This document shows positions 6,957 to 64,000 of a stretch of DNA of 64,000 bases, one piece after another (the first letter of the stretch is position 1; each line of letters opens with the position of its first letter). A program made the translations under genes and the position numbers. Under the pieces are notes generated by a model. That model made no database searches. It worked only from the letters and a program-made list of their open reading frames with translations, and was not told the DNA's origin. The stretch covers positions 1,798,001 to 1,862,000 of the forward strand of contig NZ_CP071796.1 of the NCBI RefSeq assembly GCF_017498525.1. Reading direction: 5' to 3'. This DNA is from Ottowia testudinis (GTDB taxonomy: Bacteria; Pseudomonadota; Gammaproteobacteria; Burkholderiales; Burkholderiaceae_C).

Positions 6957-7288
6957 TGGCACCTCACCTGCTCAAGCTCGCCATTCACGCCACCCCCGGT
7001 GCCAAGCGCACCGAGGCGGCCGGCGCGCATGGCGATGCCTTGCGCGTGCGGCTGGGCGCGCCGCCGGTCGATGGCAAGGCCAACGCCGCCCTGATCAGTT
7101 GGGCAGCCGGCGCGTTTGGCGTGCCTAAAAAGCAGGTGGAGCTGCTGCACGGTGCGGCGGGACGGCAGAAAGTGCTGGGCGTGCGCTTTGATTCCGCAGC
7201 CGAGCTGACCGCTGCGCAGGCGCTGGTGGCCCATTGGCGCGCGCTGGGCGCGGCGGACGGTGCGCCCCCGGTCGCTCAATCGCTATGA
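6956..7288 (+). CDS. DUF167 (YggU-family) protein
   Basis: A small conserved protein of about 110 residues with the family signature ATPGAKRTE near the N-terminus, VDGKANAALISWAA in the middle and GRQKVL further on. The molecular function of the family is unknown. The start may be GTG 6953 or ATG 6956; both overlap the Doc stop codon. In many proteobacteria yggU follows yggT and the proC cluster, so its place directly behind a toxin gene is unusual. Confidence 0.88.
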   Translation: MAPHLLKLAIHATPGAKRTEAAGAHGDALRVRLGAPPVDGKANAALISWAAGAFGVPKKQVELLHGAAGRQKVLGVRFDSAAELTAAQALVAHWRALGAADGAPPVAQSL

Positions 7289-7336
7289 AAAACAGAGCTG
7301 CTTGCGCTGATGGAACAAGCGCCAGAGGCGTTTTTT
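7288..7336 (+). repeat. Short interspersed palindromic repeat, copy 1
   Basis: Contains AGCTGCTTGCGCT, a short loop, then ACAAGCGCC, followed by a GAGGC and T-run tail. It lies between the DUF167 stop and the likely start of the serine hydrolase, and is read in frame if that gene starts at ATG 7285. Confidence 0.8.
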
Positions 7337-7353
7337 ACTCGAATAGCAGAGGC

Positions 7354-8445
7354 GTGCCCGTCACTTGCGGCATTGATCAAGGCCGGCGCCGCACCCTCGC
7401 AACCGCATCGCTGGCGCTGGGTGCGCTGGCCCTGCCAAACGCAACGGTGTGGGCGCAGCGCACGGGCCCGGCCACCGACCGCTTGGCCTGGCCCCCAGCG
7501 CCCGCGCCGCTGGCCGCGCAGCACCAACGCGCCTGGGCCGGCCTCTCGTCCCGCATCGAGGTGCAACTGCCCGACGTGCAAAGCCTGGCCGTGCTGCACC
7601 GCGGCCATCTGGCACATGAGTTCTATCGTGCCGGGGTCACGGCCGACACGCTGCAAGACACGCAGTCCGTCACCAAGAGCGTGCTGGCGCTGCTGTTCGG
7701 GCAGGCGCAGGCCGACGGGCATGTGCGGGGGCCGGACGAGCTGGTCGCGCAACGCCTGCCGCAAATGCTGCGCGTGGGTGCCGACGCGCGCGTGCAGCGG
7801 CTGCGCTTTGCACACCTGTTGACGATGACGGCGGGCTGGAAGGGCGACCAGACGGCCCAGCGCGACCGCGACGACGACTTGGCCCAGATCGTGCGCCGCC
7901 CCTTCGTGGCGCAGCCCGGCGAACGCTTTGCCTACGACAACGGCAGCGCCAACCTGCTCGCGCTGGCCTTGGCCAGTGCCGTCGGCCAGCCGTTGGCCGA
8001 CTATGCGCGCGCGCGCCTGTTCGAGCCGTTGGGCATCCGCCGGTTTGCCTGGCGGCAGGGCGCGCAGGGGCGTGCGCTGGGCGCGCTCGGCCTGTCGCTT
8101 TCCACGCGGGCCATGGCGCGCTTGGGCGAGTTGGTGCTGGCCCAGGGCCAATGGCAAGACCACGCCTTGGTGCCTACCGCTTTCGTGCGCGCCGCCACCG
8201 AACGCCAAAGCGCGGGCGGCTATCCATTGGGCGCGGCCTACGGCTACCTGTGGTGGCTGGGCGCCAGCGCACCGCGGCGCACCGCCATGGCCAACGGCTA
8301 CGGTGGGCAATGGATTTACGTCCACCCGCCGCTCGATCTGGTGGTGGCCGTGACGTCGCGCCGTACGCCCGAAAGCGCGGCACGCGGGCAGGGGCTGTCG
8401 CTGATCGAGCGCGACATCGTGCCCACTGTACAGCACATGCGATGA
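7354..8445 (+). CDS. Exported serine hydrolase, class C beta-lactamase-like
   Basis: A penicillin-binding-protein-like esterase/amidase. The active-site SxxK tetrad is seen as SVTK (in TQSVTKSVLALLFG), with a YDN motif matching the Y-x-N catalytic element. The N-terminus has a twin-arginine-like signal, GRRRTLATASLALGALALP, ending near VWAQ, so export is likely. I prefer GTG 7354, which puts the arginines in the usual place. ATG 7285 overlaps the previous stop (ATGA) but would add 23 residues encoded by a repeat. Substrate is unknown. Confidence 0.8.
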   Translation: MPVTCGIDQGRRRTLATASLALGALALPNATVWAQRTGPATDRLAWPPAPAPLAAQHQRAWAGLSSRIEVQLPDVQSLAVLHRGHLAHEFYRAGVTADTLQDTQSVTKSVLALLFGQAQADGHVRGPDELVAQRLPQMLRVGADARVQRLRFAHLLTMTAGWKGDQTAQRDRDDDLAQIVRRPFVAQPGERFAYDNGSANLLALALASAVGQPLADYARARLFEPLGIRRFAWRQGAQGRALGALGLSLSTRAMARLGELVLAQGQWQDHALVPTAFVRAATERQSAGGYPLGAAYGYLWWLGASAPRRTAMANGYGGQWIYVHPPLDLVVAVTSRRTPESAARGQGLSLIERDIVPTVQHMR

Positions 8446-8454
8446 CGGAATGCT

Positions 8455-8505
8455 TTCAAATTGATAGCTGCTCGCGCTTTCTGGACAAGCGCCAAGGCTC
8501 TTTAT
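8455..8505 (+). repeat. Short interspersed palindromic repeat, copy 2
   Basis: A near-complete copy: TTGATAGCTGCTCGCGCTT, loop, ACAAGCGCC, then the pyrimidine/T-rich tail. It fills the gap between the serine hydrolase and nicotinamidase genes. Confidence 0.88.
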
Positions 8506-8545
8506 GATGGTGGATCTCCATCACTGATTTGCACTGGAGGCTCCA

Positions 8546-9181: not shown

Positions 9182-9186
9182 AAACC

Positions 9187-9290
9187 CTTGAACGCAAAGG
9201 GCGCGAAAGTTTCGCAAAAGACGCAGAAGACGCAGAAGAGCATCAATTCTTTGCGTTTTTTGCGTACCCTCTGCGTTCTTTGCGTTCAAG
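9187..9290. repeat. Inverted-repeat element of the GCGAAGG/CTTTGCG type
   Basis: The ends form a perfect 13-bp inverted repeat, CTTGAACGCAAAG (9187-9199) and CTTTGCGTTCAAG (9278-9290). Between them are short direct motifs such as GACGCAGAA (twice) and TTTGCGTT. The gap of about 140 bases between pncA and the VOC gene is almost wholly this element. A second, larger relative occurs upstream of glnA (33641-33830). Confidence 0.8.
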
Positions 9291-9321: not shown

Positions 9322-9798
9322 ATGACCCGTCCCTTCAAAGTCCTCGGCATTCAGCAAATCGCTATCGGCGGCCCCGACAAACAGCGCTTGCAGACCTTGT
9401 GGGTCGACATGTTCGGGTTGGAGAAAACCGGCACCTTCAAGAGCGAACGCGAGAACGTCGATGAAGACATCTGCGCCATCGGCACGGGCCCGTTCAAGGT
9501 CGAGGTTGACTTGATGCAGCCGCTCGACCCCGACAAGAAGCCCGCGGTACACACCACGCCGCTCAACCACATCGGCCTGTGGATCGACGACCTGCCCCAG
9601 GCGGTGGAGTGGCTGACGGCGCAGGGCGTGCGTTTTGCGCCGGGCGGCATCCGCAAAGGCGCGGCGGGCTACGACATCACCTTCTTGCACCCCAAGGCCA
9701 ACGACGAATTTCCGATTGCGGGCGAGGGTGTGCTGATCGAGCTGGTGCAGGCACCGCCCGAGGTGATTCAAGCCTTTTCGGCCCTCGGCGCCCGCTGA
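9322..9798 (+). CDS. VOC-family protein resembling methylmalonyl-CoA epimerase
   Basis: A 158-residue two-module vicinal-oxygen-chelate protein. The second module, [20 protein letters not shown] followed by FLHPK and [10 protein letters not shown], matches the C-terminal layout of methylmalonyl-CoA epimerases, keeping a metal His and a metal Glu. In the first module the usual metal-binding NH(V/I)AIAV is replaced by QQIAIG, so one ligand His is Gln. An epimerase role would complete the propionyl-CoA route encoded 4-9 kb upstream. The changed ligand leaves activity uncertain, and a glyoxalase-like role is the alternative. Confidence 0.8.
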
Positions 9799-9842
9799 TC
9801 AAGCGCGAGCAGCTATCAAAAAAATAGCCATCAAAGCTGCGA
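9798..9842 (-). repeat. Short interspersed palindromic repeat, copy 3
   Basis: Reverse-orientation copy: CAAGCGCGAGCAGCTATC followed by an A-run and a second partial TAGC. It spans the gap between the convergent VOC and cardiolipin synthase genes and reaches into the last codons of the latter. Confidence 0.85.
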
Positions 9843-11114
9843 CTTGATGGGCAGCACAAAGCGCTCGATCAGCTTGTCCTTCAGCGGGCGCTTTTCCCAC
9901 ACCTCGAAGGTGTAGCGCTTGGTGTGCTTCAGGTCTTCGTTGAACACGCGCGTCATCTTCTGCGCGAAGGCGCGGTCGTACACGTTCAGGCTGGCCTCGT
10001 CATTCAGGCGGAACGAGCGCACGTCGAAGTTCGTGGAGCCGACCGACACCATCAGCTGATCAACGATGAGCAGCTTGTTGTGCATCATCGTCGGCAGGTA
10101 TTCGTGGATCTCGATACCGGCCTTCAGCAGCGGCCCCCATTCGGCTTTGGACGCCAGCCGCACGGTGTCGGAATCGATGTGTTCGCCGGGCACCAGGATG
10201 CGCACCTTCACGCCACGCTCGCGCGCCGCGATCATGGCTTTGTGGATCAGCTCGTCGGGCACGAAGTACGACGCCTGCAGGTCGATGGACTGCTCGGCCG
10301 CGGCGATGCCCATCAGGTACATCAGGTGCATGCTCTCGCTGCCGCCGGCGGGTGACGAGATGAACAGGTGCGCGTCCATGTCGCCCGCCTTTTGCGACGG
10401 CGGAAAGTAGCCTTCGCCGTTCAGCACCTCGCCCGTGACCTTGATCCAGTTGTCGTTGAAGGCGGCCTGAAACTGCGCCACCACCGGCCCCTCGATCTGA
10501 AAGTGCATGTCGCGCCAGTGTTCCGGGTCTTGCGCATGACCGGTCCATTGCTCGGCCACGCCGACGCCGCCAGTGAATGCGGTGTGGCCGTCGACCACCA
10601 GCAGCTTGCGGTGGGTGCGGTTGTTCATGCGGCCCAGGTTGTACCAATGCAGGGGCCGATATCGCTCCACCTGGGCGCCCGCGTCCTTCATGGTCTGGAT
10701 CAGCGTGTTGTCCATCTTGATGCTGCCGACCCAGTCGAGCAGCACCGACACCTTCACGCCCGCGCGGGCGCGATCGGCCAGCGCTTCGGCCAGTTCCTTG
10801 CCGATGTCGCCCGACCAGTAGATGTAGGTTTCGAACGTGATGGTCTTCTTGGCCGCGCGAATGGCCTTGAGCATGGCTGGAAAGATCTCGTCGCCGTTCT
10901 GCAGGTCTTCGACGCGGTTGCCGCCGACGATGGCGGGGCCGAGCATCACGCTCATTTCTCGGCGGTACTGCGGGTCGTTGATGGCGTAGCGGTGCTCGAT
11001 CTTGCGCTCGAGCTTTTTCTCCGGCGTGGCGAAGTTCATCGCCAGCACCACGGCCAGCACGGTGACGAGCGCGGTGATGGCAATGGTCCAGAACATCTTT
11101 CTTTTTCGGGGCAT
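9831..11114 (-). CDS. cls: Cardiolipin synthase, phospholipase D family
   Basis: A 427-residue membrane-anchored enzyme that joins phosphatidylglycerol molecules (or PG and PE) to make cardiolipin. One N-terminal transmembrane helix (FWTIAITALVTVLAVVLAM) is followed by two HKD motifs, THRKLLVVDGHTAFTGG and MHNKLLIVDQLMVSVGSTN, each with His, Lys and Asp. The start at 11114 (MPRKRKMF) was chosen because upstream residues in the open frame are not conserved-looking. It is transcribed away from the oxidoreductase operon. The last codons overlap a repeat. Confidence 0.9.
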   Translation of the reverse strand: MPRKRKMFWTIAITALVTVLAVVLAMNFATPEKKLERKIEHRYAINDPQYRREMSVMLGPAIVGGNRVEDLQNGDEIFPAMLKAIRAAKKTITFETYIYWSGDIGKELAEALADRARAGVKVSVLLDWVGSIKMDNTLIQTMKDAGAQVERYRPLHWYNLGRMNNRTHRKLLVVDGHTAFTGGVGVAEQWTGHAQDPEHWRDMHFQIEGPVVAQFQAAFNDNWIKVTGEVLNGEGYFPPSQKAGDMDAHLFISSPAGGSESMHLMYLMGIAAAEQSIDLQASYFVPDELIHKAMIAARERGVKVRILVPGEHIDSDTVRLASKAEWGPLLKAGIEIHEYLPTMMHNKLLIVDQLMVSVGSTNFDVRSFRLNDEASLNVYDRAFAQKMTRVFNEDLKHTKRYTFEVWEKRPLKDKLIERFVLPIKSQL

Positions 11115-11354
11115 GTTGTTTGCGGGCGAGCAGGTGCAATGACGGCGCGCCCGCAGTGTATGAACACCACCACCCGACGGGCGTAGGACGGTAACGTTGA
11201 TCGGCGTCAAACCGAATGCCTTGCGCAGGCTGGTTTGCGGGTATTTTTCCGCATTCCACCCGCCAGCGGACGGCGTAGACTTGCACGCAACCTCCCGGCG
11301 CCCAGGACGTACAGCGGCCTGGCGCAGACCGCGGCGGACAAGGAGACCCCAGCT

Positions 11355-13187
11355 TTGCGTGCCACCGACACCGCCGATCCGGCCTATTTCCACAAGGTCG
11401 TCGATTGCCAATGGGCGTGCCCCGCCCACACCCCCGTTCCTGAATACATCCGGTTGATCGCGCAAGGCCGCTACGGCGATGCGTACATGATCAACTGGGT
11501 GTCCAACGTGTTTCCCGGCATTCTGGGCCGCACCTGCGACCGCCCGTGCGAGCCGGCCTGCCGGCGCGGGCGAGTGGAGGAGGCCAATGCCGAGAAGCCG
11601 GAGCCCGTGGCCATCTGCCGCCTGAAGCGCGTGGCGGCCGATTTGAAAGAGGACGTGGTGGCGCGCATGCCGCGATCGGTCCCGGCCAATGGCAAACGCG
11701 TCGCCTGCGTGGGCGCGGGGCCGTCGTCGCTGACGGTGGCGCGCGACCTGGCGCCGCTGGGCTACCAGGTGACGGTTTTCGACGGTGAACGCAAGGCGGG
11801 CGGCTTCATGCACCAGCAAATTCCGCGTTTTCGCCTGCCCGAAAGCGTGATCGACGAGGAAACCGGCTACGTCTTCGCCCTGGGGCCCGAGTTCAAGAGC
11901 GGCCAACGCATCGACTCCATGAAAGCGCTGCTGGCCGAAGGCTATGACGCCATCTTCGTCGGCAGCGGTGCACCGCGCGGACGCGATCTTGACATTCCCG
12001 GCCGGCAAGAAGCGGCTACGCACATCCACATCGGCATCGACTGGCTGGCTTCGGTCGCGTTCGGGCACGTGACCTCAGTGCCCAAGCGGGTCATTGTGCT
12101 GGGCGGTGGCAACACGGCGATGGATTGCTGCCGCTCGGCGCGACGCCTGGGGGGAGAAGACGTCAAGGTCATTGTGCGCAGCGGCTTCGACGAAATGAAG
12201 GCCTCGCCCTGGGAAAAGGAAGACGCGCAGCACGAGGGCATTCCCATCATCAACATGCACGTGCCCAAGGCCTTTGTGCACGAAGGCGGCAAGCTGCTGG
12301 GCATGACGTTTGAAGTGGTGCGCGCCGAGTACGACGCCAGCGGAAAACGCAAGCTGGTGCCCACGGGCGAGCCCGACCCGTTCTTCGCCTGCGACGAAGT
12401 GCTGATCGCCGTGGGCCAGGAGAATGCCTTCCCGTGGATCGAGCGCGACTGCGGCATCGAATTCGACCAGTGGGGCTTGCCGGTGCTGAAGGAAGGCACG
12501 TTCCAGTCGAGCCTGCCCACCGTGTTTTTCGGCGGGGATGCGGCCTATGGCCCCAAGAACATCATCACCGCGGTGGCGCACGGGCATGAGGCCGCGGTCT
12601 CGATCGATCGGTTGCTCACCGGCCAGGACGTGGCCGTACGTCCGCCGCCGCGCACCACCCTGATGTCGCAGAAGATGGGCATCCACGAATGGGGTTATGA
12701 CAACGACCCCAGCAACGACCAACGCTACAAGGTGCCGTGGGCCAAGGCCGAGAAGGCGCTGGCCAGCATCCAGGTGGAAGTGGAACTGGGCTTTGACGCG
12801 CGCACTGCGTTGAAGGAAGCCGGGCGCTGCCTGAACTGCGACGTGCAGACCGTGTTCACCGACAAGCTGTGCATTGAATGCGACGCCTGCGTGGACATCT
12901 GCCCAATGGACTGCATCACCTTCACCGCTCCCGGTGACGAGACCGATCTGCGCCAGCGCCTGAACGCGCCGGCCGAGAACACCGACCAGGCGCTGTACGT
13001 GTCGGGGGCGCTGAAAACCGGGCGCGTGCTGGTGAAGGACGAAGACGTCTGCCTGCACTGCGGGCTGTGCGCCGAACGGTGCCCCACCGGCGCCTGGGAC
13101 ATGCAGAAGTTTCTGCTGCACACCGCCAAGGCCGGCGGTGACGCTATGAATAGGGTAGCTGTTCCTCAAGAAAGGACGCCGGCATGA
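11355..13187 (+). CDS. FAD/NADPH oxidoreductase subunit with two C-terminal [4Fe-4S] clusters (KorC-like)
   Basis: A 610-residue GltD-type subunit. It has an N-terminal Fe-S domain (CQWACPAHTPVPEY and CDRPCEPACRR), an FAD motif (GAGPSSLTVA), an NADPH motif (VLGGGNTAMDCC), and a C-terminal double ferredoxin domain (CIECDACVDICP and CLHCGLCAERCP). Similar subunits partner KorAB in the 2-oxoglutarate:NADP+ oxidoreductase described from Azoarcus evansii. The start is TTG 11355, eight bases after AAGGAGA; no ATG or GTG fits the conserved N-terminus. It couples by ATGA to the alpha subunit. Confidence 0.88.
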   Translation: MRATDTADPAYFHKVVDCQWACPAHTPVPEYIRLIAQGRYGDAYMINWVSNVFPGILGRTCDRPCEPACRRGRVEEANAEKPEPVAICRLKRVAADLKEDVVARMPRSVPANGKRVACVGAGPSSLTVARDLAPLGYQVTVFDGERKAGGFMHQQIPRFRLPESVIDEETGYVFALGPEFKSGQRIDSMKALLAEGYDAIFVGSGAPRGRDLDIPGRQEAATHIHIGIDWLASVAFGHVTSVPKRVIVLGGGNTAMDCCRSARRLGGEDVKVIVRSGFDEMKASPWEKEDAQHEGIPIINMHVPKAFVHEGGKLLGMTFEVVRAEYDASGKRKLVPTGEPDPFFACDEVLIAVGQENAFPWIERDCGIEFDQWGLPVLKEGTFQSSLPTVFFGGDAAYGPKNIITAVAHGHEAAVSIDRLLTGQDVAVRPPPRTTLMSQKMGIHEWGYDNDPSNDQRYKVPWAKAEKALASIQVEVELGFDARTALKEAGRCLNCDVQTVFTDKLCIECDACVDICPMDCITFTAPGDETDLRQRLNAPAENTDQALYVSGALKTGRVLVKDEDVCLHCGLCAERCPTGAWDMQKFLLHTAKAGGDAMNRVAVPQERTPA

Positions 13188-16065: not shown

Positions 16066-16071
16066 GGTTGC

Positions 16072-20545: not shown

Positions 20546-21261
20546 CGCCCCGCCAGACCTTCAGGCCAAATCGGCGTCCAGCGCTTGTCTGGCAAGCGCG
20601 AGCAGCTATTTTATTGATAGTGTTTCTGGGCGGCTGCAACGGTGCCCCCAAGGTGCCCGACTGGAAGATCAACGCCATTGGCCATGTCGAGCGCTTCACC
20701 GAGGCCTACCTCAAAGGCGACGACCGCATCGAGGCACGTGAATTTGCCCTGGCGCGCGCCGAAACCGCGCGCACCGGGCGGCCCGAGTTGGTGGCGCGCA
20801 TCGAACTTACACGCTGCGCCACGCGCGTGGCGAGCCTGGTGTTCGAACCGTGTACCGGCTTCGAGCCGCTGCGCGCCGACGCCAGCGAGGCCGAACGCGC
20901 CTACGCCGACTATCTGGGCGGCCGCACGCTGAGCGCCGCTCAGGCCGCGCTGTTGCCTGACCATCATCGCGCAATCGCCGCAGGGGCCGCCACCGGCGCC
21001 GTGCTGCCGCCATCCGACGATCCGCTGGGCCGCCTGATCGCGGCTGGCGTGCTGCTGCGCCGCACGCAGGCCAGCCCAGAGGTCATCGAGCAAGCGGTCG
21101 ATGCGACGTCCCATCAAGGCTGGCGCCGCCCGCTGCTGGCGTGGCTGGGTGTGCAGGCTCGCTTGGCCGACGAGCGGGGGGATGCCGAGATGGCCGCGCG
21201 GGTCAGAAGGCGGATGGATTTGGTGCAGCCAGCCGCCACGCCAGTGACCGTAAAGCCGTGA
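20542..21261 (+). CDS. Lipoprotein of the MCE operon
   Basis: A 239-residue protein with a lipoprotein signal: Arg-rich start, hydrophobic core ARAAILLIVFLGG and lipobox Cys in GGCNGAPK. No known domain is recognised; the mature part is helical and Ala-rich. It starts on GTG 20542 overlapping the MCE gene stop, and its own stop overlaps the next possible start. Position suggests it is the periplasmic or outer-membrane partner of the permease and MCE pair. Part of the signal peptide is encoded by a copy of the interspersed repeat. Confidence 0.75.
   Translation: MTPRQTFRPNRRPALVWQARAAILLIVFLGGCNGAPKVPDWKINAIGHVERFTEAYLKGDDRIEAREFALARAETARTGRPELVARIELTRCATRVASLVFEPCTGFEPLRADASEAERAYADYLGGRTLSAAQAALLPDHHRAIAAGAATGAVLPPSDDPLGRLIAAGVLLRRTQASPEVIEQAVDATSHQGWRRPLLAWLGVQARLADERGDAEMAARVRRRMDLVQPAATPVTVKP
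20562..20618 (-). repeat. Short interspersed palindromic repeat, copy 4 (coding)
   Basis: Reverse-orientation copy, with AGCGCTTGTC, loop, and CAAGCGCGAGCAGCTAT. Read in the lipoprotein frame it gives the segment ending ARAAILLIV, which forms most of the hydrophobic core of the signal peptide. Confidence 0.85.
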
Positions 21262-21677
21262 GATGGCGTAGAGAGGGTGAGAGCCACCGCGATGCCAGCT
21301 TGCGCTGGAGCATGCGCGGGTTCGCCCTATTTGCCACTTCACTGCTGGCCGTGGCCTTGCCCGGGCCTTGGGGGCGAAAAACGCAAGTGGTGCTGGCCGT
21401 TGCTGGCATCGGCCTTGTGTGGGGGGCGACATTGCTGGGCCTGGTGCTTTCGTTTCAAGACGACAGCCCCTTGCGAGCGGCGAGAGACTTTGCCGAGCGC
21501 CATGGCTTATGGCAAGTTGCGAAATATGTCGGTCCGGTTCAACTGCTCGGCGGTGCAATAGCGAGCGTTATGGCTTGGGGCGATGAACCGTTCATGGCGT
21601 TCTGGTTGGGCGCTTTGTTAGGAAGCGTGCCTGGGTTCATTCTGTATCTGGTGATGGCGGCGCGACACGGGAAATGA
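21258..21677 (+). CDS. Small membrane protein of unknown function
   Basis: Up to 139 residues. GTG 21258 overlaps the preceding stop, while ATG 21312 (MRGFALF) gives 121 residues and a more natural membrane N-terminus. Three or four hydrophobic segments are visible (FALFATSLLAVALP, VVLAVAGIGLVWGATLLGLV, VGPVQLLGGAIASVMA, FWLGALLGSVPGFILYLVM). No family is recognised. Its composition is somewhat less GC-rich than its neighbours. It may be the last gene of the MCE operon or an independent gene. Confidence 0.6.
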   Translation: MRWRREGESHRDASLRWSMRGFALFATSLLAVALPGPWGRKTQVVLAVAGIGLVWGATLLGLVLSFQDDSPLRAARDFAERHGLWQVAKYVGPVQLLGGAIASVMAWGDEPFMAFWLGALLGSVPGFILYLVMAARHGK

Positions 21678-21688: not shown

Positions 21689-22759
21689 TCATGCGTTGCT
21701 TTTCAATTCCGTGAACAGATCACTGTAAATTTTGTAGCGGTTTGCGCTGATCCCGCCTGCGCTAGAGCGCGATTTGACTGCTTCAGCCACCCCGCACCCC
21801 GGCTCATGCAAATGCGTGCAGTTGTAAAACCGGCACTCGGCGACGTGCGGCCTGATGTCTGGCATGTACGCCGCCAGCTGCATCGGGTCGATGTGGCGCA
21901 GGCCGAATTCCTGAAAGCCGGGTGAGTCGATCAGGGCGCTGTTTTTCTCGCCGTCCAGCCAGTACCAGGTGGTGGTGGTGGTGGTGTGCTTGCCGGAATT
22001 GAGCGCCTGCGAGATCTCGCCCGTCTGCGCGGCGGCGCCGGGGACGGCGCGGTTGATGAGGGTGCTCTTGCCAGCGCCGCTGGGGCCGAGAATGAGGGTG
22101 GTGCGGCCGCGCAGGCGAGTAAGGAGTTCGTCGAAGGCAAACGGAGGTGGGGTGGCGGGGCCGCCCCTCACTCCAGCCCTCTCTCCAAGGCGGAGCGCGG
22201 GCAATACCCGCGAGGCAACGGGTGTGGCGTTTTCCGCGTCCTCTCCCACCGGCGGGAGAGGGCCGGGGTGAGGGTGCCTAGGCTTGACCGCCAGCGGCAG
22301 CACCGCGTAGCCCATGGCGCGATAAGGCGCCAGCCGCTGCCAGGCACGGGAGAAAGATTCGGTCAGATCGGCCTTGTTGAGCACGATGAGCGGGGCGATG
22401 TGCTCGGCCTCGCAGGCGATCAAGGCGCGGGCGAGTTGGTGTTCTGAAAATTCCGGCTCGGCGGCCAGCAGAATCAGAACCTGATCCAGGTTGGCGGCAA
22501 AGCTCTTGGTGCGCACCTCGTCCTGGCGATACAGCAGGTTGCGGCGTTCGTCGATGCGCTCGATGGTGCCTTCGTCCTGGCTGGGCAGCCAGCGCACGCG
22601 GTCGCCCACCACCACGGCCAGCTTCTTGCCGCGCGGGTGGCAGATGACGCGTTCGCCAGCGGGGGGTTCGACCACGCAGTGGCGGCCGTGAGCGCTCACC
22701 ACCAAACCTTCGCGCAGGCCAGTCACGGGCGGGGCCGGGGCGCGGCGCGGGCGGCTCAT
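21689..22759 (-). CDS. rsgA: Ribosome small subunit-dependent GTPase A
   Basis: A 356-residue circularly permuted GTPase that helps mature the 30S subunit. Motifs appear in the permuted order: OB-fold N-terminus, NKAD (G4), the P-loop GPSGAGKST (G1), DSPGF (G3), then the zinc module CRFYNCTHLHEPGC. The family norm is about 300 residues. The excess is an insert of about 45 residues between the G4 motif and the P-loop, starting RHPHPGPLPPVGE, encoded by paired palindromic repeats (22164-22276). It overlaps phhB by four bases. Confidence 0.93.
   Translation of the reverse strand: MSRPRRAPAPPVTGLREGLVVSAHGRHCVVEPPAGERVICHPRGKKLAVVVGDRVRWLPSQDEGTIERIDERRNLLYRQDEVRTKSFAANLDQVLILLAAEPEFSEHQLARALIACEAEHIAPLIVLNKADLTESFSRAWQRLAPYRAMGYAVLPLAVKPRHPHPGPLPPVGEDAENATPVASRVLPALRLGERAGVRGGPATPPPFAFDELLTRLRGRTTLILGPSGAGKSTLINRAVPGAAAQTGEISQALNSGKHTTTTTTWYWLDGEKNSALIDSPGFQEFGLRHIDPMQLAAYMPDIRPHVAECRFYNCTHLHEPGCGVAEAVKSRSSAGGISANRYKIYSDLFTELKSNA
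22164..22276. repeat. Inverted pair of CTCTCCC/GGGAGAG palindromic repeats inside rsgA
   Basis: The left unit (22164-22200, CCCCTCACTCCAGCCCTCTC...) and right unit (22240-22276, ...GGGAGAGGGCCGGGGTGAG) are diverged inverted copies. The right unit holds its own stem CTCTCCC-GGGAGAG. They stay in frame with rsgA and encode a Pro/Gly/Arg-rich loop. The same family occurs in imuB and at the window start. Confidence 0.88.
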
Positions 22760-23127
22760 GCGGTGGTCTCGGGGGCGGCGCCCAGGCGCGCGGCCAGCGC
22801 ATCGGTCTGGCGCGCGGCGTCGAGGTCGAGCGCGGTCACGCCGCCGGCGTCGTGCGTGGTCCAGCGCACCCGGCAGCGGCCGTGGCCGACGAACAGATCG
22901 GGGTGGTGGTTCAGCGATTCGGCCAGCGCGGCAACGGCCTGAGCCAACGCCATGGCCTGGCGCAAGCCCGGCAGGCGCCAGCCCTTTTCGATGGCAGGTG
23001 CCGTGTCTGCCGTGGTGGCTCGCCAGCCGGACAAGTTGCGCAGGGATGCTTCCAATTCAGTAGCTTCCAGCGCTTGATTGGTGGGCGCTAGCGGCCGATT
23101 TGGCTTTAAATCCATGGCGGCGCCCAT
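22756..23127 (-). CDS. phhB: Pterin-4a-carbinolamine dehydratase
   Basis: About 123 residues. It dehydrates pterin-4a-carbinolamine formed by aromatic amino-acid hydroxylases, regenerating the cofactor. ALAESLNHHPDLFVGHGRCRVRWTTHDAGG carries the family's His-His and Trp-Thr-His-Asp landmarks (shown here as NHHPD and RWTTHDAGG). The first 30 residues after MDLK come from a copy of the interspersed repeat. The start is uncertain between 23127 and 23115. It overlaps rsgA downstream and the M48 protease upstream. Confidence 0.87.
   Translation of the reverse strand: MGAAMDLKPNRPLAPTNQALEATELEASLRNLSGWRATTADTAPAIEKGWRLPGLRQAMALAQAVAALAESLNHHPDLFVGHGRCRVRWTTHDAGGVTALDLDAARQTDALAARLGAAPETTA
23052..23110 (+). 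repeat. Short interspersed palindromic repeat, copy 5 (coding, antisense)
   Basis: CAGTAGCTTCCAGCGCTT, loop, GGGCGCTAGCGGCC then ATTTGGC. On the minus strand it encodes the N-terminal region of PhhB (residues NRPLAPTNQALEATE). Confidence 0.75.
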
Positions 23128-31793: not shown

Positions 31794-31797
31794 TAAC

Positions 31798-31850
31798 TAT
31801 TCTTTTAATAGCTGCTCGCGCTTGATGGACAAGCGCTGAAGGCCAATTTG
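31798..31850 (+). repeat. Short interspersed palindromic repeat, copy 7
   Basis: The cleanest copy: TTAATAGCTGCTCGCGCTT, loop GATGGAC, AAGCGCTGAAGGCC then AATTTGATC. It fills the gap between the hydroxylase and EI24 genes and can serve as a reference for the consensus. Confidence 0.9.
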
Positions 31851-31891
31851 ATCATGAATTTTTTGCGACACGCGATGCGGCCGTCCACGCC

Positions 31892-33625: not shown

Positions 33626-33640
33626 CTTGTGAGTTGTTGA

Positions 33641-36089: not shown

Positions 36090-36143
36090 AACTATAAAAA
36101 ATATAGCTGCTTGCGCTTGATGGGTAAGCGCTGGAGCTGTTTT
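36090..36143 (+). repeat. Short interspersed palindromic repeat, copy 9
   Basis: ATATAGCTGCTTGCGCTT, loop GATGGGT, AAGCGCTGGAGC then a T-run. It ends about 30 bases before the ntrB start. Confidence 0.9.
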
Positions 36144-36175
36144 TCGCTGATGGCCTCTGGCGGCCCCTTTCTCGC

Positions 36176-41725: not shown

Positions 41726-41798
41726 TCAAAAATACAAAATTGATAGCTGCTCGCGCTTTCTTATCAAGCGCTAGCGGCCAATTTCTCTTTAAATTTCA
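41726..41798 (+). repeat. Short interspersed palindromic repeat, copy 11
   Basis: AATTGATAGCTGCTCGCGCTT, a loop and CAAGCGCTAGCGGCC then AATTT (first part is AATTGATAGCTGC plus TCGCGCTT). It fills the gap between thyA and the small ORF ahead of folA, and touches the thyA stop. Confidence 0.9.
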
Positions 41799-52685: not shown

Positions 52686-53134
52686 AGCTGCCCGACACCA
52701 ACTTGCTGGTCTATAGCGTCAACGCCAGCAGTCCGTTTCACAGCGCCGCGAAGGCGTGGCTTGCGGATGCGTTCGCCGCGTCCGGCGGTGTGGCGTTTGC
52801 CTGGAACGCGCTGATCGGCTTTGTGCGCATTGCCACGCATCCACGCGCCATGCAGTCGCCGCTCACCGTGAGCGATGCCACAGGCATGGTGGACGAATGG
52901 TTGTCGCAGCCACGCGCCGTCGTGGTGAACCCCGGTCCGCACCACGCCGATGTGCTGTTCAAGTTGCTGCTGCAATGCGGCACCGGCGGCAACCTGACCA
53001 ACGACGCCCATCTGGCCGCGCTGGCCGTTGAACATTCGGCCACCGTGGGCACGTTCGATCGCGATTTCCTCAAATTCAAGGGTGTGCAGATCGATCTGCT
53101 GACCCGCCCCGATTCATCCAAGTTCCCATCATGA
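52682..53134 (+). CDS. PIN-domain toxin, VapC family
   Basis: A 150-residue ribonuclease toxin. Catalytic acids: Asp in LPDTNLLVY (residue 5), a Glu/Asp near the middle, Asp in [12 protein letters not shown] and Asp in [10 protein letters not shown]. VapC toxins cut tRNA or rRNA. It overlaps the antitoxin gene upstream and, unusually, the alaS gene downstream by four bases. Confidence 0.9.
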
Positions 53135-55761
53135 AAAACGCCAACCCCCCCCTCTCCGTCGCCGACATCCGCAAGTCCTTCCTCGACTTCTTTGAAAGCA
53201 AGGGCCACACCGTGGTGCCCTCATCGCCCCTGGTGCCCGGCAACGACCCCACGCTGATGTTCACCAACAGCGGCATGGTGCAGTTCAAGGACGTGTTCCT
53301 GGGCACCGACAAGCGCCCCTACGTGCGCGCGGCCAGCGTGCAGGCCTGCCTGCGCGCGGGCGGCAAGCACAACGATTTGGAGAACGTGGGCTATACCGCG
53401 AGGCATCACACCTTCTTCGAGATGCTGGGCAACTGGTCGTTTGGCGACTACTTCAAACGCGAGAGCATCGAATGGGGCTGGGAGCTGCTGACCCAGGTCT
53501 ACGGCCTGCCGCCTGAAAAACTCACCGCCACCGTCTACCACGAAGACGACGAGGCGTATGACATCTGGACGAAGGTGATCGGCCTGCCGCCCGAGCGCGT
53601 GATCCGCATCAACGACAACAAGGGCGGCAAGTACAAGAGCGACAACTTCTGGATGATGGCCGACACCGGCCCCTGTGGCCCGTGCTCTGAAATCTTCTAC
53701 GACCACGGCCCGCACATCCCCGGCGGCCCGCCCGGCAGCCCGGATGAAGACGGTGACCGCTTCATCGAAATCTGGAACCACGTGTTCATGCAGTTCGAGA
53801 TGCACGAAGACGGCAGCGTCACCCCGCTGCCCGCGCCCTGCGTGGACACCGGCATGGGCCTGGAGCGCCTGGCCGCCATCTTGCAGCACGTGCACAGCAA
53901 CTACGAGATCGACCTGTTCGAGCGGCTGATCCAGGCCGCGAGCGAGGCCACCGGCTGCGCCGATCTGGCGCACCCGTCGCTCAAGGTGATTGCCGACCAC
54001 ATCCGCGCCACGGCGTTTCTGGTCAGCGACGGCGTGATCCCCAGCAACGAAGGCCGCGGCTACGTGCAACGCCGCATCATCCGCCGCGCTATTCGGCACG
54101 GTTACAAGCTGGGGCAGAAAAAGCCCTTCTTCCACAAGCTGGTGCCGGTCCTGGTTGAACTCATGGGCGCGGCGTATCCGCGTTTGCAGGCTGAAGGCCG
54201 TCGCGTTGAAGAAGTGCTGAAGGCGGAGGAAGAGCGCTTCTTTGAGACGCTGGCCAACGGCATGGAGATTCTGGACGACGCGCTGATCGCCGGCCGCAAG
54301 GAACTGCCCGGCCACGTCGCCTTCAAGCTGCACGACACCTACGGCTTCCCGCTCGATCTGACGCAAGACGTGTGCCGCGAGCGCGGTGTGACGGTGGATG
54401 TGGCGGGCTTTGACGAAGCCATGGCCGCGCAAAAGGCGGCAGGCCGCGCGGCGGGCAAGTTCAAGATGGACAAGGCGGTGGATTACAGCGGCGGCGCCAA
54501 CGTATTCACCGGCTACGACGAGTTGTCGAGTGCTAGCAAAATAATAGCTATCTATCAGGACGGCGTGCCGGCCAACGCCCTGAAAGACGGTCAAAGCGGC
54601 ATCGTGGTGCTGGACACCACGCCGTTCTATGCCGAGAGTGGTGGCCAGGTGGGCGACAGCGGCGTGCTGGCCGGTCAGGGCTTTGAGTTCGGCGTGCAGG
54701 ACACGCAGAAGATCCGCGCCGACGTCTACGGCCACCACGGCGTGATGACGCAGGGCACGCTGAAAGTGGGCGATGCCGTGGACGCCCGGGTCGACCAGAC
54801 CACGCGCGCCGCCACCATGCGCAACCACAGCGTCACGCACTTGATGCACAAGGCGCTGCGCGAGGTGCTGGGCGCCCACGTGCAGCAAAAAGGCAGCCTG
54901 GTCGATGCCGAGAAAACGCGCTTCGACTTCGCGCACAACGCACCCGTCACCCCCGAGCAGATCATCGAGATCGAACGCCGCGTCAACGAAGAGATCCTGC
55001 AGAACGCCGCCACCCAGGCGCGCGTGATGGACATCGACAGCGCCCAGAAAACCGGCGCCATGATGCTGTTCGGCGAAAAGTATGGCGAGACCGTGCGCGT
55101 GCTCGACATCGGCACCAGCCGCGAACTGTGCGGCGGCACGCACGTCAAGGCCACGGGCGACATTGGCCTGTTCAAGATCACCAGCGAAGGCGGCGTGGCG
55201 GCGGGCGTGCGGCGCATCGAGGCCATCACGGGCGCCAACGCGCTGGCCTACACGCAGGCGCTGGAATCCAGCCTGCACAGCGTGGCCGCCACGCTGCGCG
55301 CGCCCACGGGCGAGGTGCAGGCGCGCCTGGGCCAGGTGCTTGATCAGGTCAAGGCGCTGGAGAAAGAAATCGCCCAGCTCAAGGGCAAGCTCGCGTCATC
55401 CCAGGGCGACGATCTGGTGAGCCAGGCCGTCGATGTGAAGGGCCTCAAGGTGCTGGCCGCGCGCCTGGACGGCGCCGACGCCAAGACCCTGCGCGACACG
55501 CTCGACAAGCTGAAAGACAAGCTGAAAACCGCCGCCATCGTGCTGGCCGCCGTCGAGGGCGACAAGGTGCAACTGGCCGCCGCCGTGACCAAGGATTCGG
55601 TCGGCAAGGTCAAGGCCGGCGAACTGGTCAACTTCGTCGCACAGCAGGTGGGCGGCAAAGGCGGCGGCAAGCCCGACATGGCGATGGCCGGGGGCACCGA
55701 CGCCAGCGGCCTGCCCCAGGCGCTGCAAAGCGTGCACGGTTGGGTGGCCGAACGTGTCTAA
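53131..55761 (+). CDS. alaS: Alanyl-tRNA synthetase
   Basis: An 876-residue class II synthetase with editing domain. Class II motifs lie in the first 250 residues ([18 protein letters not shown], and [18 protein letters not shown]). The editing site has [11 protein letters not shown] and [11 protein letters not shown] with zinc-binding His and Cys. A C-Ala domain ends the protein. A short stretch after YDELSS ([10 protein letters not shown]) is repeat-derived. Its ATG overlaps the TGA of the PIN toxin gene. The downstream GNAT gene overlaps its end by eight bases. Confidence 0.96.
54528..54562 (-). repeat. Short interspersed palindromic repeat, fragment in alaS
   Basis: AGTGCTAGCAAAATAATAGC followed by TATCTATC. 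Only the AT-rich end and a TAGC core remain. It is in frame and lies between the aminoacylation and editing domains. Confidence 0.4.
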
Positions 55762-56967: not shown

Positions 56968-58113
56968 ATGAACACGTTTCGCCGCGCCCTGATGGCGCGC
57001 GCGGCCGGCCTTGGCATGGCTGCCGCATTGCCCGGCGCCGCGCTGGCCCAACAAGCCGCCGATGCCGCTTCCCCCGCCCCGTCGGCACGCCGCTTCGATC
57101 CCGCACCGGGCGATTGGCGAACGTTCGATGTCACCGCTCGCGTCGATCTGCCCGCCACCACCAGCGCCACGCGCGTGTGGTTGCCGTTGCCGGCGCTGCA
57201 GGCGCCGTGGCAGCAGACGCTGGGCCATCAGTTTTCCAGCAACGGCGCGGCGCGCCTGGCCAGCGACGGCGCGCAGGGCGTGCGCATGGTGGCGGCGGAA
57301 TTCGCGGCCGGCGTGGCGCAGCCGTTTGTCGAAGTGACCAGCCGCGTGCGCACCCAAAGCCGCGCCGTCAGTGCGCGATCCGCCCGCGAAGACGCCGCCA
57401 CGCTGCGCGACGCGCTCAAGCCCACGCGGCTGATTCCCACCGACGGCATCGTGCGCGACACGGCGCTCAAGGCCACGCGCGGCGCGCGCGGCGACGAAGC
57501 CCAGGCGCGCGCGCTGTACGACTGGGTGATTGCCAACGCCTGGCGCGAACCCAAGGTGCGCGGCTGCGGCGAAGGCGACATCAAGACGATGCTGGAGACC
57601 GGCAACCTGGGCGGCAAGTGCGCCGACCTGAACGCGCTGTTCGTCGGCCTGTGCCGCAGCGTGGGCCTGCCGGCGCGCGACGTGTACGGCATTCGCCTCG
57701 CGCCCTCGGCCTTTGACTACAAGGAACTGGGCGCCGCCAGCGCCAAGCTGCAAGGCGCGCCGCATTGCCGGGCCGAGGTCTACCTGCAGGCGCGCGGCTG
57801 GACGGCGATGGACCCGGCCGATGTGGCCAAGGTCATGCGCCAGGAAGCGCCCGAGTGGATCAAGACCCGCGATCACCCGCTTGTGCGCCCTGTGTACGAA
57901 GGCCTGTTCGGCGGTTGGGAAGGCAACTGGATGGCCTACAACACAGCGCACGACGTGAAGCTGCCCGGCGCGCAGGAGGGCGAACTGGGCTTTTTCATGT
58001 ACCCCGTGGCCGAAAACGCCGAGGAGCGCTTCGACAGCTACGCGCCGGACGCCTTCAAGTACCAGATCACGGCGCGAAGTGGCGGTTTGATTCAATTGCT
58101 CGTAAATCAATAG
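56968..58113 (+). CDS. Exported transglutaminase-like protein
   Basis: A 381-residue protein with a signal peptide (RRALMARAAGLGMAAALPGAALAQ) and a transglutaminase-like cysteine protease fold. The triad is Cys in GGKCADLNALFVGL, His in HCRAEVYLQARGW and Asp in MDPADV. A role in cell-wall or protein processing in the periplasm is likely, with substrate unknown. Its last codons (GGLIQLLVNQ) run into a repeat copy, and the IS30-type element lies 42 bases downstream. Confidence 0.88.
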   Translation: MNTFRRALMARAAGLGMAAALPGAALAQQAADAASPAPSARRFDPAPGDWRTFDVTARVDLPATTSATRVWLPLPALQAPWQQTLGHQFSSNGAARLASDGAQGVRMVAAEFAAGVAQPFVEVTSRVRTQSRAVSARSAREDAATLRDALKPTRLIPTDGIVRDTALKATRGARGDEAQARALYDWVIANAWREPKVRGCGEGDIKTMLETGNLGGKCADLNALFVGLCRSVGLPARDVYGIRLAPSAFDYKELGAASAKLQGAPHCRAEVYLQARGWTAMDPADVAKVMRQEAPEWIKTRDHPLVRPVYEGLFGGWEGNWMAYNTAHDVKLPGAQEGELGFFMYPVAENAEERFDSYAPDAFKYQITARSGGLIQLLVNQ

Positions 58114-58152
58114 CTGTTCGCGCTTTTCAGCTAAGCGCTACACCCTATTTCG
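58104..58152 (+). repeat. Short interspersed palindromic repeat, copy 14
   Basis: AATCAATAGCTGTTCGCGCTT (given as AATCAATAGCTGTTC, GCGCTT), loop, CTAAGCGCTACACCC then TATTT. It provides the final codons and stop of the transglutaminase-like gene and ends just before the IS30-type element. Confidence 0.85.
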
Positions 58153-58249
58153 ATAGGCGGTTTCAACTACGAAGTGCACGATAAAGCGGTTGGCTCAGAC
58201 AGGTAAGCGAGGATTACCGGTTTGACCTGCCAGTCTGAACAAGTGCACC

Positions 58250-61678: not shown

Positions 61679-62613
61679 TCGGCTGGCCAGCGGCCCTGCG
61701 CGGCCGCCAGTTCCAGGCTGGATTGGAACTGCCGCCGCTCTCCAGTCACCGGATCATCGAAAGCCAACTCGCGCGCCAACAGCTGCAGCGGGCGCGCCAT
61801 GTCGTCCGCCGCGCCGGGGCCGCGCAGCACCTGCGGATAGAAGCTGTCGCCCAATATCGGCACGCCCAGCGCTTGCAGGTGCAAACGCAACTGGTGGCGC
61901 TGCCCGGTGACGGGGCTGAGGCGGTACACGGCGTGATCGCCCAGCACGCGAATGCGCTCAATGTGCGTTTCGCTGTTGGGCTCGCCCGGCACTTCGCGTG
62001 ACAGAAAGAAGCGCTCGGCATCGGGCATCAACCGGCTGCGGTGCGTGCGCGGTAGCGCCAAGCCGGCGCGATGCGGCGCCACGGCTTCATAGGCCTTGTG
62101 CACGCGCCGGTCACGGAACAATGCCTGGTAAGCGCCGCGTGTGTGCGGCTGCACCGCCAGCACCACCAGGCCGGCCGTCTCGCGGTCGATGCGGTGCACC
62201 GGGCTCAGGCCGGCCAGGCCCAGGCGCCGCTTAAGCCGCACCAGCAGGCTTTGCTGCACGAAGCGGCCACTCGGTGTGACGGGCATGAAGTGCGGCTTGT
62301 CGGCCACCACCAGCCAACTGTCCTGGAACACGATGCGCTCGGCCAGCGGCGGCTCGGGCTCGGCCGCCAGGCGGCGGTAGTAATAAACGCGCTGGCCGGG
62401 GCGGCAGGGCGCGCCGGCGTGCAGCGGGTGGCCACGCTCGTCCAGCACCTCGCCGCCGCGCAGACGCTCGGCCCAGTCGGCGCGCGGCAGCGCGGGCAGG
62501 CGGGTGGCCAGAAAATCCAGCACCGTCGGCGCGTCGCCCGTGCGCACCACGATGCAGCTGGCGCTGACGCCCTCGCGCAGCGGCAAGTGCGATGGGCGGG
62601 GCGGGCGGCTCAT
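61636..62613 (-). CDS. RluA-family pseudouridine synthase
   Basis: A 325-residue synthase. The catalytic Asp is in VHRIDRETAGLVVLA. The N-terminal S4-like part is short (ADWAERLRGGEVLDERG). LVVADKPHFMPVTPSG and GQRHQLRLHLQALGVPILGD are typical of the RluA/RluC/RluD group, and the subgroup with HFMPVTPSGR often modifies 23S rRNA position 1911 region or tRNA. The exact target cannot be settled here. It ends inside the convergent hypothetical gene. Confidence 0.9.
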   Translation of the reverse strand: MSRPPRPSHLPLREGVSASCIVVRTGDAPTVLDFLATRLPALPRADWAERLRGGEVLDERGHPLHAGAPCRPGQRVYYYRRLAAEPEPPLAERIVFQDSWLVVADKPHFMPVTPSGRFVQQSLLVRLKRRLGLAGLSPVHRIDRETAGLVVLAVQPHTRGAYQALFRDRRVHKAYEAVAPHRAGLALPRTHRSRLMPDAERFFLSREVPGEPNSETHIERIRVLGDHAVYRLSPVTGQRHQLRLHLQALGVPILGDSFYPQVLRGPGAADDMARPLQLLARELAFDDPVTGERRQFQSSLELAAAQGRWPADQLAGKLPISVSGA

Positions 62614-62629
62614 GATCTGGGCAAAAATG

Positions 62630-62671
62630 CCTGCCAGCGCAATCTGGGCAAGCGCGAGAAGCTATTGTTTA
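62630..62671 (-). repeat. Short interspersed palindromic repeat, copy 15
   Basis: CTGCCAGCGCAATCTGGGC, then AAGCGCGAGAAGCTATTG. It occupies the gap between the RluA-type gene and trmB and ends at the trmB stop. Confidence 0.8.
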
Positions 62672-63412
62672 GGTAGCAACCGGCAGCGCGGATTGATCGG
62701 TGCGGCGAAACACCAGATCCCACACGCCATGGCCCAGCGCCAAGCCGCGGCGCTCGAACTTGGTCTCGGGCCGGTAGCCGGGCCGCGGCGCGTAGCCATC
62801 GGCGGTGTTGGCCAAGAGCGGCTCGGCGCTCAGCACGGCCAGCATTTGCTCGGCGTAGGGCTGCCAGTCGGTGGCGCAATGCAGGTAGCCGCTGGGCGCC
62901 AGCCGCTCGGCCAGCAGCCGCACAAAGGGCGGCTGGATCAGGCGGCGCTTGTGGTGGCGCTTTTTGTGCCACGGGTCGGGAAAGAAGATGTGCACGCCGT
63001 GCAGGCTGGCGGGCGCCATCATGTGCCGCAGCACCTCGACCGCGTCGTGCTGCACGATGCGCAGGTTGTGCAGCCGCTGCTCGCCCATGCTCTTGAGCAG
63101 CGCGCCCACACCGGGCTCGTGTACTTCGCAGCCGATGAACAGCGTACCCGGCATCAGCGCCGCGATGTGCGCCGTGGCGTGGCCCATGCCGAAGCCGATC
63201 TCGAGCACGGTTTTTGAGTAAATATGGCCGCCAGCGCTTTCCTTACAAGCGCAAGCAGCTACCAAATCCGTAGTGGACGGGTCGTAGGGCAGCACATGGC
63301 GCGGGCCGAGTTCGGCCAGCGCGCGGGCCTGGGCGCTGGTGGTGCGGCCAGCCCGCGTGACGAAGCTGCGGATCGGGCGCGGGTGCGCTACGTCGGCGGG
63401 CGGCGTGGTCAC
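62669..63412 (-). CDS. trmB: tRNA (guanine-N7)-methyltransferase
   Basis: A 247-residue class I methyltransferase that makes m7G46 in tRNA with SAM. SAM-binding [28 protein letters not shown] and the C-terminal [17 protein letters not shown] (contacting tRNA) are diagnostic. A segment just before the SAM motif ([19 protein letters not shown]) is encoded by a repeat copy. It starts on GTG 63412, overlapping the upstream gene's stop, so translation is coupled. Confidence 0.93.
63218..63268 (-). repeat. Short interspersed palindromic repeat, copy 16 (coding)
   Basis: ATGGCCGCCAGCGCTTTCC, then TTACAAGCGCAAGCAGCTAC. Its translation on the minus strand, [13 protein letters not shown], lies immediately before the trmB SAM-binding motif. 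Confidence 0.88.
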
Positions 63413-64000
63413 GGTTCGCGCGGCTCGTCGGCGGGGCGGGCGGCCAGCGGCTCGGGGCCGGCGTCCACGGCATCGTCGGCCCAGGTTTCGAAAGCGGTAT
63501 CGCTATCGCTGGTTTCGGCGGTGCTGGATTTTTTAAGCGAAATAGGCGTCTTGCGCTCGTCAGACGAGCGCGGAGCGCTATCGTATCGAGAGTATTTGCG
63601 CAGCACCTGCACCAGTTGGGCGTATACCCGCGGGTTGCCCGCCAGGCACTCGCCCTGGTCCAGGTCGCCTGCTTCGCCGGTGAAGTTGCCAATCAAGCCA
63701 CCGGCTTCGGTCACCAGCAGCGAGCCCGCGGCCACGTCCCAGATTTTCAGGCCGGTTTCAAAAAAACCATCGGTGAAGCCGGCCGCGATATAGGCCAAAT
63801 CGAGCGCGGCCGCGCCCGGGCGGCGCAGGCCGGCGGTGCGTTGCATCACGTCGCCCATCATCTTCAGGTAGGTGGGAAAGTCGTCGCCCTTGCGGAACGG
63901 AAAGCCGGTGGAAACCAGGCTTTGGTTGAGCTGCGTGCGCTTGCTGGCGCGAATGCGCCGGTCGTTCAGGTAGGCGCCGCGCCCGCGCGTGGCGGTGAAC
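63409..64000 (-). CDS. suhB: Inositol monophosphatase-family protein (partial)
   Basis: The C-terminal 196 codons; the N-terminus lies beyond the window end. The second family motif [19 protein letters not shown] is clear, and the preceding [22 protein letters not shown] fit SuhB. The first metal motif (DPLDGT) would be outside. The last 45 residues ([19 protein letters not shown] and on) extend past the normal SuhB end and are partly repeat-encoded. The stop overlaps the trmB start. Confidence 0.88.
63538..63588 (-). repeat. Short interspersed palindromic repeat, copy 17 (coding)
   Basis: AAATAGGCGTCTTGCGCTCGT, then CAGACGAGCGCGGAGCGCTATC (parts: AAATAGGCGTCTTGC, GACGAGCGCGGAGCGC). The stem is GCGCTCGTC/GACGAGCGC. 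It encodes part of the C-terminal extension of the inositol-monophosphatase-family protein. Confidence 0.7.

Follow-up and report, generated by a model that had tools for sequence, protein, structure and literature searches.

A REP-like hairpin repeat of about 68 bp in Ottowia testudinis, its in-frame segments in proteins and a candidate mobiliser

The window analysed here, a stretch of 64,000 nucleotides from the betaproteobacterium Ottowia testudinis (contig NZ_CP071796.1, positions 1,798,001 to 1,862,000), carries a short palindromic repeat at many places, both between and inside genes. What kind of element is it, how did it spread, and has it become part of proteins? An earlier note on this DNA had described a non-autonomous repeat that entered proteins in the manner of the Rickettsia palindromic elements, and this description holds up in RlmJ and DnaE2, where orthologues without the segment exist. 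The repeat is best read as a non-autonomous element of about 68 bp, similar to the repetitive extragenic palindromic (REP) sequences, that spread long ago and whose probable mobiliser is a REP-associated tyrosine transposase, here named RAYT3; we give this reading a probability of roughly 0.55.

The core of the repeat has 45 matches in the window at up to three mismatches compared with 20.2 expected, a number reached in none of 100 shuffles. A profile model, R1, which was built from an alignment of 59 sequences (A1) after an initial profile from window and genome copies, gives 16 window matches of at least 45 bits (nine on the forward and seven on the reverse strand) and two weak copies, one of 28.3 bits (21719-21787) and one of 26.1 bits (46805-46873). 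None of the other 13 among the 31 listed matches exceeds 23 bits, and most of them are partial or lie opposite a copy's strand. These 18 copies, 69 in length and 36-54% in GC content, amount to one copy per 3.5-4 kb in both orientations, in agreement with the earlier count of about seventeen plus fragments. The whole genome (G000, a single contig of 4.32 Mb that holds the window) contains 322 forward and 270 reverse matches to the 16-base core at no more than one mismatch, 592 in all, and the reversed control of this core has none genome-wide. By its glutamine synthetase, the named relatives nearest to this genome are Ottowia (Comamonadaceae). A 464-kb sample, made of the window and 20 evenly spaced 20-kb stretches, holds 97 clear copies (at least 25 bits), of which 16 are in the window and 81 in the 400 kb outside it, and the latter density extrapolates to about 900 copies per genome. 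The R1 search of the genome scored 150 of 6164 candidates, and the copy number rests on the core count and the 464-kb sample. Rfam has no match in the window at gathering scores, and a literature search with partial coverage, most subscription papers lying outside it, found no description of this repeat. Carriage by phages and plasmids looks rare, with 22 exact-match contigs in a viral collection and two plasmid records.

The unit of about 68 bp consists of a CT dinucleotide, an AT-rich arm, an RTAG tag with the imperfect hairpin of 13 pairs at whose foot it stands, and a second AT-rich arm. Its limits are sharp: in 128 copies, column information drops to nothing beyond positions of about -17 and +52 relative to the core. 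The palindromic core reported earlier is real, and the element is longer than was described. Part of A1 was collected through hits with the 5' core and so overstates its conservation; column figures were therefore taken from the 464-kb sample, whose copies were themselves found with the A1 profile. The consensus of the 97 copies is ATTGCTATTAAATTGATAGCTGCTCGCGCTTGCCGGGCAAGCGCTAGAGGCCGATTTGACTCAAAATC. CT stands at columns 5-6 in 85% of them, compared with 5% for CT in the genome, and a second CT at columns 60-61 in 33%. The tag at columns 16-19 reads A/G-T-A-G, with A in 79% and G in 18% at column 16 and T, A and G at 88-99% in columns 17-19 (A and G at 99%). Columns of the 5' stem are conserved at 73-99%, several core columns at 95-99%, and loop and arm columns at about 30-60%. 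Pairing in the stem holds for 76% of cells compared with 34-46% when slid, with one interior mismatch column. No target duplication is seen, even the best-ranked boundary pairs agreeing in only 3-7 of the 97 copies, and the consensus has no terminal inverted repeats, its ends not pairing by eye.

By open reading frames (ORFs) called with a simple GC-position script rather than a trained gene caller, 34 of the 97 copies are intergenic, 32 lie across a gene end and 31 are wholly inside ORFs, 19 of these in mid-gene. About 84% of the sampled DNA is called coding, and so copies in coding sequence are under-represented, yet many. Gaps between convergent genes are favoured (16 of 33 intergenic copies, compared with 53 of 213 gaps), and some elements supply the stop codons of adjoining genes. 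Where the element is translated, a few open frames are reused, LIAARA..TSAGG in the sense and ALA..AQAAIK in the antisense direction, and enzymes can gain as many as about twenty amino acids from it. Among the host proteins that Pfam identifies are an ATP-dependent DNA ligase, a radical SAM protein, which we take to be of the YgiQ type, a squalene/phytoene synthase, an Lhr-type helicase with two copies, Fmt, PyrD, RlmJ and DprA.

In-frame insertion is best seen in RlmJ and DnaE2, because same-genus orthologues without the segment are available for both. Among 23 usable same-genus rows of the RlmJ alignment, the own genome included, eight match the profile at 30.9 down to 9.0 bits, and eight others (G526, G525, G531, G520, G529, G522, G524 and G527) are shorter by 51-63 nt across the loop region; the alignment has 30 loci, from which L264 (no segment) and L275 (misaligned) were left out, five further rows being order-level relatives. 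The protein has 22 residues more than the E. coli RlmJ structure. The DnaE2 loop has 39 residues compared with 11 in G529 and G522, 28 more, and related peptides occur in G526, G532 and G509; some loci of this alignment are duplicate places of the same genomes. The segment of TrmB in 12 aligned same-genus orthologues is about 10 residues longer than in seven order-level relatives, and PyrD exceeds most order-level relatives by about 11 residues, G009 being longer still. Insertion followed by trimming would account for TrmB, PyrD and Fmt, which are the weakest cases. For the signal peptide of a polysaccharide deacetylase, the profile also matches at the corresponding position in L054, L055, L057, L061 and L069, and by eye L063 and, faintly, L068 resemble the element there; this insertion is therefore old.

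The alternative that such segments are ancestral protein sequence fails for RlmJ and DnaE2 against same-genus orthologues and for TrmB and PyrD against order-level relatives. It succeeds for the CinA-like protein, in which a copy had been claimed: the match at 33195-33263 (20.9 bits) is ordinary coding sequence, as in 17 of 20 relatives the corresponding interval is within 5 bases of its length in the window, and the other three hold other inserts. It also succeeds, on one comparable relative (L068) that has no length change, for a match in dihydrofolate reductase (DHFR) at 41324-41392 (20.5 bits). The copy claimed in AlaS is not found, with no R1 match up to E=5 in 53131-55761, and that in ImuB is unsupported, the single R1 match of its region (44751-44819) having E=3.6. 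The CinA-like gene of two relatives (L054:9338-9442 and L055:3718-3811) holds another repeat-like insert, about 87 bp long and rich in GC, which is missing from the window at about 33235; by its description it may be the published BRE.

The element is confined to one bacterial family. In a scan for the core, 23 of 130 genomes of the family, the own genome included, have at least ten matches, with a range from 0 to 592 and 341 (G500) as the highest count besides the own. The scan of the order covered 399 genomes, and outside the family none of them has more than three matches, which is control level (controls reach 5). Two genomes of the same genus, G411 and G509, have 42 and 45, showing that copy number varies greatly within a genus.

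Which protein could have moved it? The suggestion to look for a REP-associated tyrosine transposase led to three such proteins among the 20 PF01797 matches of the own genome, the two obvious ones sitting among other GTAG repeats and the third being the better candidate. The first two, RAYT1 and RAYT2, score 198.2 and 192.9 bits with NCBIfam REP_Tyr_transpos. Their loci (L041:4570-5118 and L040:4752-5240) each adjoin GTAG-tagged palindromes whose sequence differs by eye from that of the element, and among 57 genomes searched they have a relative in one other copy-bearing genome (G487) and in two zero-copy ones; they are unlikely mobilisers. RAYT3 (G000:818891-819583, 231 amino acids) lies upstream of a glutamate synthase gene, which Pfam confirms in the own genome. 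It scores 90.7 with REP_Tyr_transpos (cut-off 80), and its best match in the Protein Data Bank is TnpA-REP 4er8 (E 0.00024), with which the HUH and tyrosine motifs align. RAYT3 occurs in all 57 family genomes searched, 46 of them with one match. Among the 30 of 57 loci whose flanks were scored, all 30 have a glutamate-synthase-like N-terminus within 900 nt downstream, and 11 have an element score above 10 beside RAYT3, nine within 90 bp after the stop and three within 190 bp upstream, this upstream stretch being longer than the 90-bp windows of the background (3118 windows, 99th percentile -27.5). The nine downstream copies are found in eight of 21 genomes with at least ten copies and in one of nine with fewer. 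In several zero-copy genomes an ATTTGAT(A/G)TGTCCC-like block is kept after RAYT3. On these sequence comparisons RAYT3 is the best mobiliser candidate, though not a proven one.

Inverted AATTGGGGTCAGATTCCAATT-like motifs often stand on both sides of RAYT3 itself (L039 around 4892-5587; loci L139-L168), and in some genomes those upstream are in tandem. The own genome also has IS200-like transposases, five copies of which are split at the same profile position (G000:C1:112876, 263272, 1234668, 2372082 and 2431054) beside four full-length ones. An element copy at L033:1331-1399 is interrupted by sequence resembling an IS200 end hairpin, from which an insertion sequence appears to have landed in the element.

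These observations lead to a plausible sequence of events. Single-stranded copies of the element would fold into an imperfect hairpin with RTAG at its foot and CT upstream, a layout of the kind recognised and cut by REP-processing HUH tyrosine transposases. Such an enzyme, most likely the family-wide RAYT3, may have cut at CT and spread the element long ago in this lineage and several related genera without target duplications. Landings would have fallen mainly behind genes and often inside them, and copies that occupied a multiple of three bases, on arrival or after trimming, and had an open frame would have been retained as extra protein segments, presumably where they fell in loops, linkers and termini.

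Several results weigh against this reading. The tag is predominantly ATAG and not GTAG. Only one stem pair has changed on both sides, compared with 2.4 in shuffles, and the hairpin as such is not demonstrably maintained; what seems to be kept in the stem is its sequence and not its pairing, because conservation is higher in the 5' arm than in the 3' one and most changes in the stem are non-compensatory. RAYT3 is present in every tested repeat-free genome, so that its presence does not predict copies, and 11 of the 57 genomes have a second, weaker match. In 13 of the 21 genomes with at least ten copies, G500 with its 341 included, no copy scoring above 10 directly follows RAYT3, and the stretch after RAYT3 exceeds the 99th percentile of the background in 12 of these 21 and also in four of the nine genomes with fewer. 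In G432, which has no copies, the hairpin beside RAYT3 was predicted to be multi-copy and has two matches. The RAYT3 locus is vertically inherited, and its occurrences are therefore not independent; it also has inverted GGGGTCAGA motifs of its own, possibly its real ends. No pair among the 97 copies exceeds 78% identity, the median to the nearest neighbour being 71%, and there is thus no sign of recent transposition among them; the mobile element that had been proposed stands as regards insertion in RlmJ and DnaE2 and not as regards recent movement. Both of these sites are hypervariable loops: seven of the 23 RlmJ rows are intermediate, with neither a profile match nor a full gap, and the DnaE2 loop ranges from 8 to 130 residues across rows, a tolerant site. 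PyrD is element-like in most of the genus and equally long without the element in G529 and G522, and Fmt has four residues more than its best structural match, with little length change.

The rival that survives best retains a REP-like element and replaces its mobiliser, which would be extinct or another one, such as a transposase of the IS200/IS605 type or the product of an unseen gene; the hairpin next to RAYT3 would then be a terminator or one more insertion. The old look of the copies, the occurrence of RAYT3 in zero-copy genomes and the presence of IS200-type transposases in the genome speak for it. However, an element-like hairpin is kept beside RAYT3 even in G427 and G451, which have 11 and 6 copies, and the one IS200 copy whose ends were examined bears a different hairpin; we regard this rival as unlikely, although it is the least unlikely of the alternatives to RAYT3.

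The next rival concerns the core. At three orthologous intergenic sites (five comparisons), 9 of 100 core positions differ compared with 63 of 175 others, and with two comparisons at a fourth site added, 19 of 140 compared with 106 of 245; these counts come from copies found with the profile, which favours conserved cores, and leave out L190, whose fourth site gave no element. The core is thus kept about fourfold better than the arms, which suggests selection or drive on the core after insertion, and this, together with the absence of pairs above 78% identity, makes an old spread with continuing maintenance likely. Core maintenance is the part that is explained least, and a rival therefore stays in play in which the repeat resembles an uptake signal or is the binding site of a host protein, its core built and held by biased DNA uptake or site selection with no transposition. 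DNA uptake sequences occur in hundreds of copies, in both orientations and also in genes, keep their core and arise by substitution. The element shares the high number, both orientations, the presence in genes and the kept core, and its slow core change at orthologous sites, the contrast between its core columns and its loop and arm columns, the lack of near-identical copies and the PyrD orthologues of equal length would all fit such an origin. Unlike uptake sequences, it forms a hairpin within a unit that has sharp ends, and carriers gain segments of about its own length in RlmJ and DnaE2, missing in several same-genus orthologues, although PyrD shows no gain against two same-genus orthologues; the orthologue comparison, moreover, carries the bias towards conserved cores given above. 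We hold an uptake or binding site to be improbable, and rank it just behind a lost or different mobiliser. A DDE-type miniature inverted-repeat transposable element (MITE), to which the short, palindromic and dispersed nature of the repeat might point, is very improbable, since the consensus has no visible terminal inverted repeats and the copies no target duplication.

The reading as an old REP-like element with RAYT3 as its probable mobiliser invites comparison with known repeats. The Rickettsia palindromic elements are a repeat family of 100-150 nt in Rickettsia that is found in frame in many unrelated proteins. The element is likewise palindromic and lies in frame in unrelated proteins as well as between genes; it differs in belonging to another group of organisms, in being about half as long and in having a candidate transposase in hand, the likeness being one of description and not of compared sequences.

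REP sequences with their transposases (REPtrons) and the element share a high copy number (>100) of an imperfect hairpin, a TAG-type tag, a conserved CT upstream, the absence of target duplication, and a location mostly outside ORFs or at gene ends with enrichment between convergent genes. A clear copy lies beside the REP-associated tyrosine transposase RAYT3 in 11 of 30 loci, and RAYT1 and RAYT2 have other repeats by eye. The element differs from REP sequences in its mainly ATAG tag, where these are defined by GTAG or CGTC, in a conserved unit about twice as long, in its 31 of 97 copies inside called ORFs, where these are extragenic, and in a transposase that scores below RAYT1 and RAYT2 for the REP-transposase family. 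It is also single rather than paired or clustered as in bacterial interspersed mosaic elements (BIMEs) and REP doublets forming hairpins (REPINs); pairing of the REPIN kind is rejected, with four pairs of neighbours less than 400 bp apart in the 464 kb (copies of at least 20 bits). Since tag, location and pairing differ, we do not class the element as REP, though it probably works like one. TnpA-REP of E. coli depends on GTAG and cleaves at a CT that lies 5' or 3' of its hairpin (PMC8266576), and the original survey of these transposases found mostly GTAG-type and GTGG-type repeats, with Thauera as a betaproteobacterial case that had no counterpart in other betaproteobacteria (PMC2817692). In a survey of GTAG/CGTC repeats, the words Acidovorax, Polaromonas, Delftia, Variovorax, Verminephrobacter and betaproteobacteria do not occur (PMC3733652). 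The report on BRE describes repeats of about 90 bp with about 69% GC (64-79% in Bordetella), often in tandem, with no more than 29 copies per genome (PMC3110155). BRE resembles the element in occurring in Comamonadaceae with some copies within coding sequence, and is set apart by description, not by sequence, from an element 69 long with 36-54% GC.

In the window, seven copies lie wholly within ORFs and the others abut or overlap gene ends or stand between genes, fewer in coding frames than the ten or more that had been counted. All scores that follow are R1 bits. The copy at 23045-23113 (+, 61.6) forms residues 7-29 of a PhhB-like ORF (22756-23130, -), that at 38512-38580 (+, 50.0) residues 404-425 of an NtrC-like linker, common among aligned relatives to L055 only, and that at 63209-63277 (-, 66.3) about residues 46-68 of TrmB by orthologue alignment; that at 63528-63596 (-, 45.0) is a C-terminal extension directly after an inositol-monophosphatase domain (Pfam), with weak matches at a similar distance in L190-L192. 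All four had been noticed before at these places. Of two copies noticed in DnaE2, that at 48979-49047 (-, 53.7) is well supported, in frame in the variable loop by orthologue alignment, and the weak one at 46805-46873 (+) is a candidate. Two signal peptides had likewise been proposed. The copy at 29795-29863 (+, 53.4) does form the N-terminus of the polysaccharide deacetylase, which by eye resembles a signal peptide (MRVLIACFLIAAAAFPASASAQ), and that at 7279-7347 (+, 56.4), though within the called ORF 7234-8445 of a beta-lactamase-fold protein, precedes a hydrophobic, signal-peptide-like stretch (by eye) and is probably upstream of the true start. The weak copy at 21719-21787 (+) is near the C-terminus of an RsgA-like ORF (21689-22759, -; Pfam).

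At gene ends, the copy at 9763-9831 (-, 61.1) abuts the 3' end of a PLD-family gene (9831-12068, -; Pfam), that at 20556-20624 (-, 72.9) overlaps the 3' end of an ORF without a Pfam match (20611-21558, -), and that at 58095-58163 (+, 53.9) provides with its TAG (58111-58113) the stop codon of a transglutaminase-like gene (56968-58113). Between genes are the copies at 8449-8517 (+, 61.3), at 31793-31861 (+, 76.0), which is conserved in L054 and L055, at 36088-36156 (+, 60.9), upstream of a histidine kinase gene at 36176, at 41728-41796 (+, 71.7), between the DHFR and thymidylate synthase ORFs, whose entire gap it fills if the called DHFR start (41729) is real, and at 62612-62680 (-, 54.3), between a pseudouridine synthase gene and trmB. 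The intergenic copy at 33693-33761 (-, 61.7) lies within the loop of a longer inverted repeat, and L055 carries the element at the same place in the opposite orientation. Long inverted repeats of GACGCGAAGG-like units are seen at 9187-9290 and about 33640-33800 of the window and near 1100-1200 of L058.

There is a tentative possibility, to which we give low confidence, that a family-wide domesticated transposase and about 900 hairpin sites form one long-lived system, in which the sites would rarely jump, their core would be actively kept, and they would be recruited repeatedly as enzyme segments, stop codons and a signal peptide. The element adds a family of REP-like repeats to a group in which the literature searched describes none, and it comes with a cognate transposase candidate that can be tested. 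It also parallels the Rickettsia elements as a palindromic repeat that feeds in-frame segments into housekeeping proteins, namely RlmJ, TrmB, DnaE2, a DNA ligase and, with less clarity, PyrD and Fmt. Since RlmJ and DnaE2 have same-genus orthologues with and without the segment, the effect of such a segment on the protein is directly measurable.

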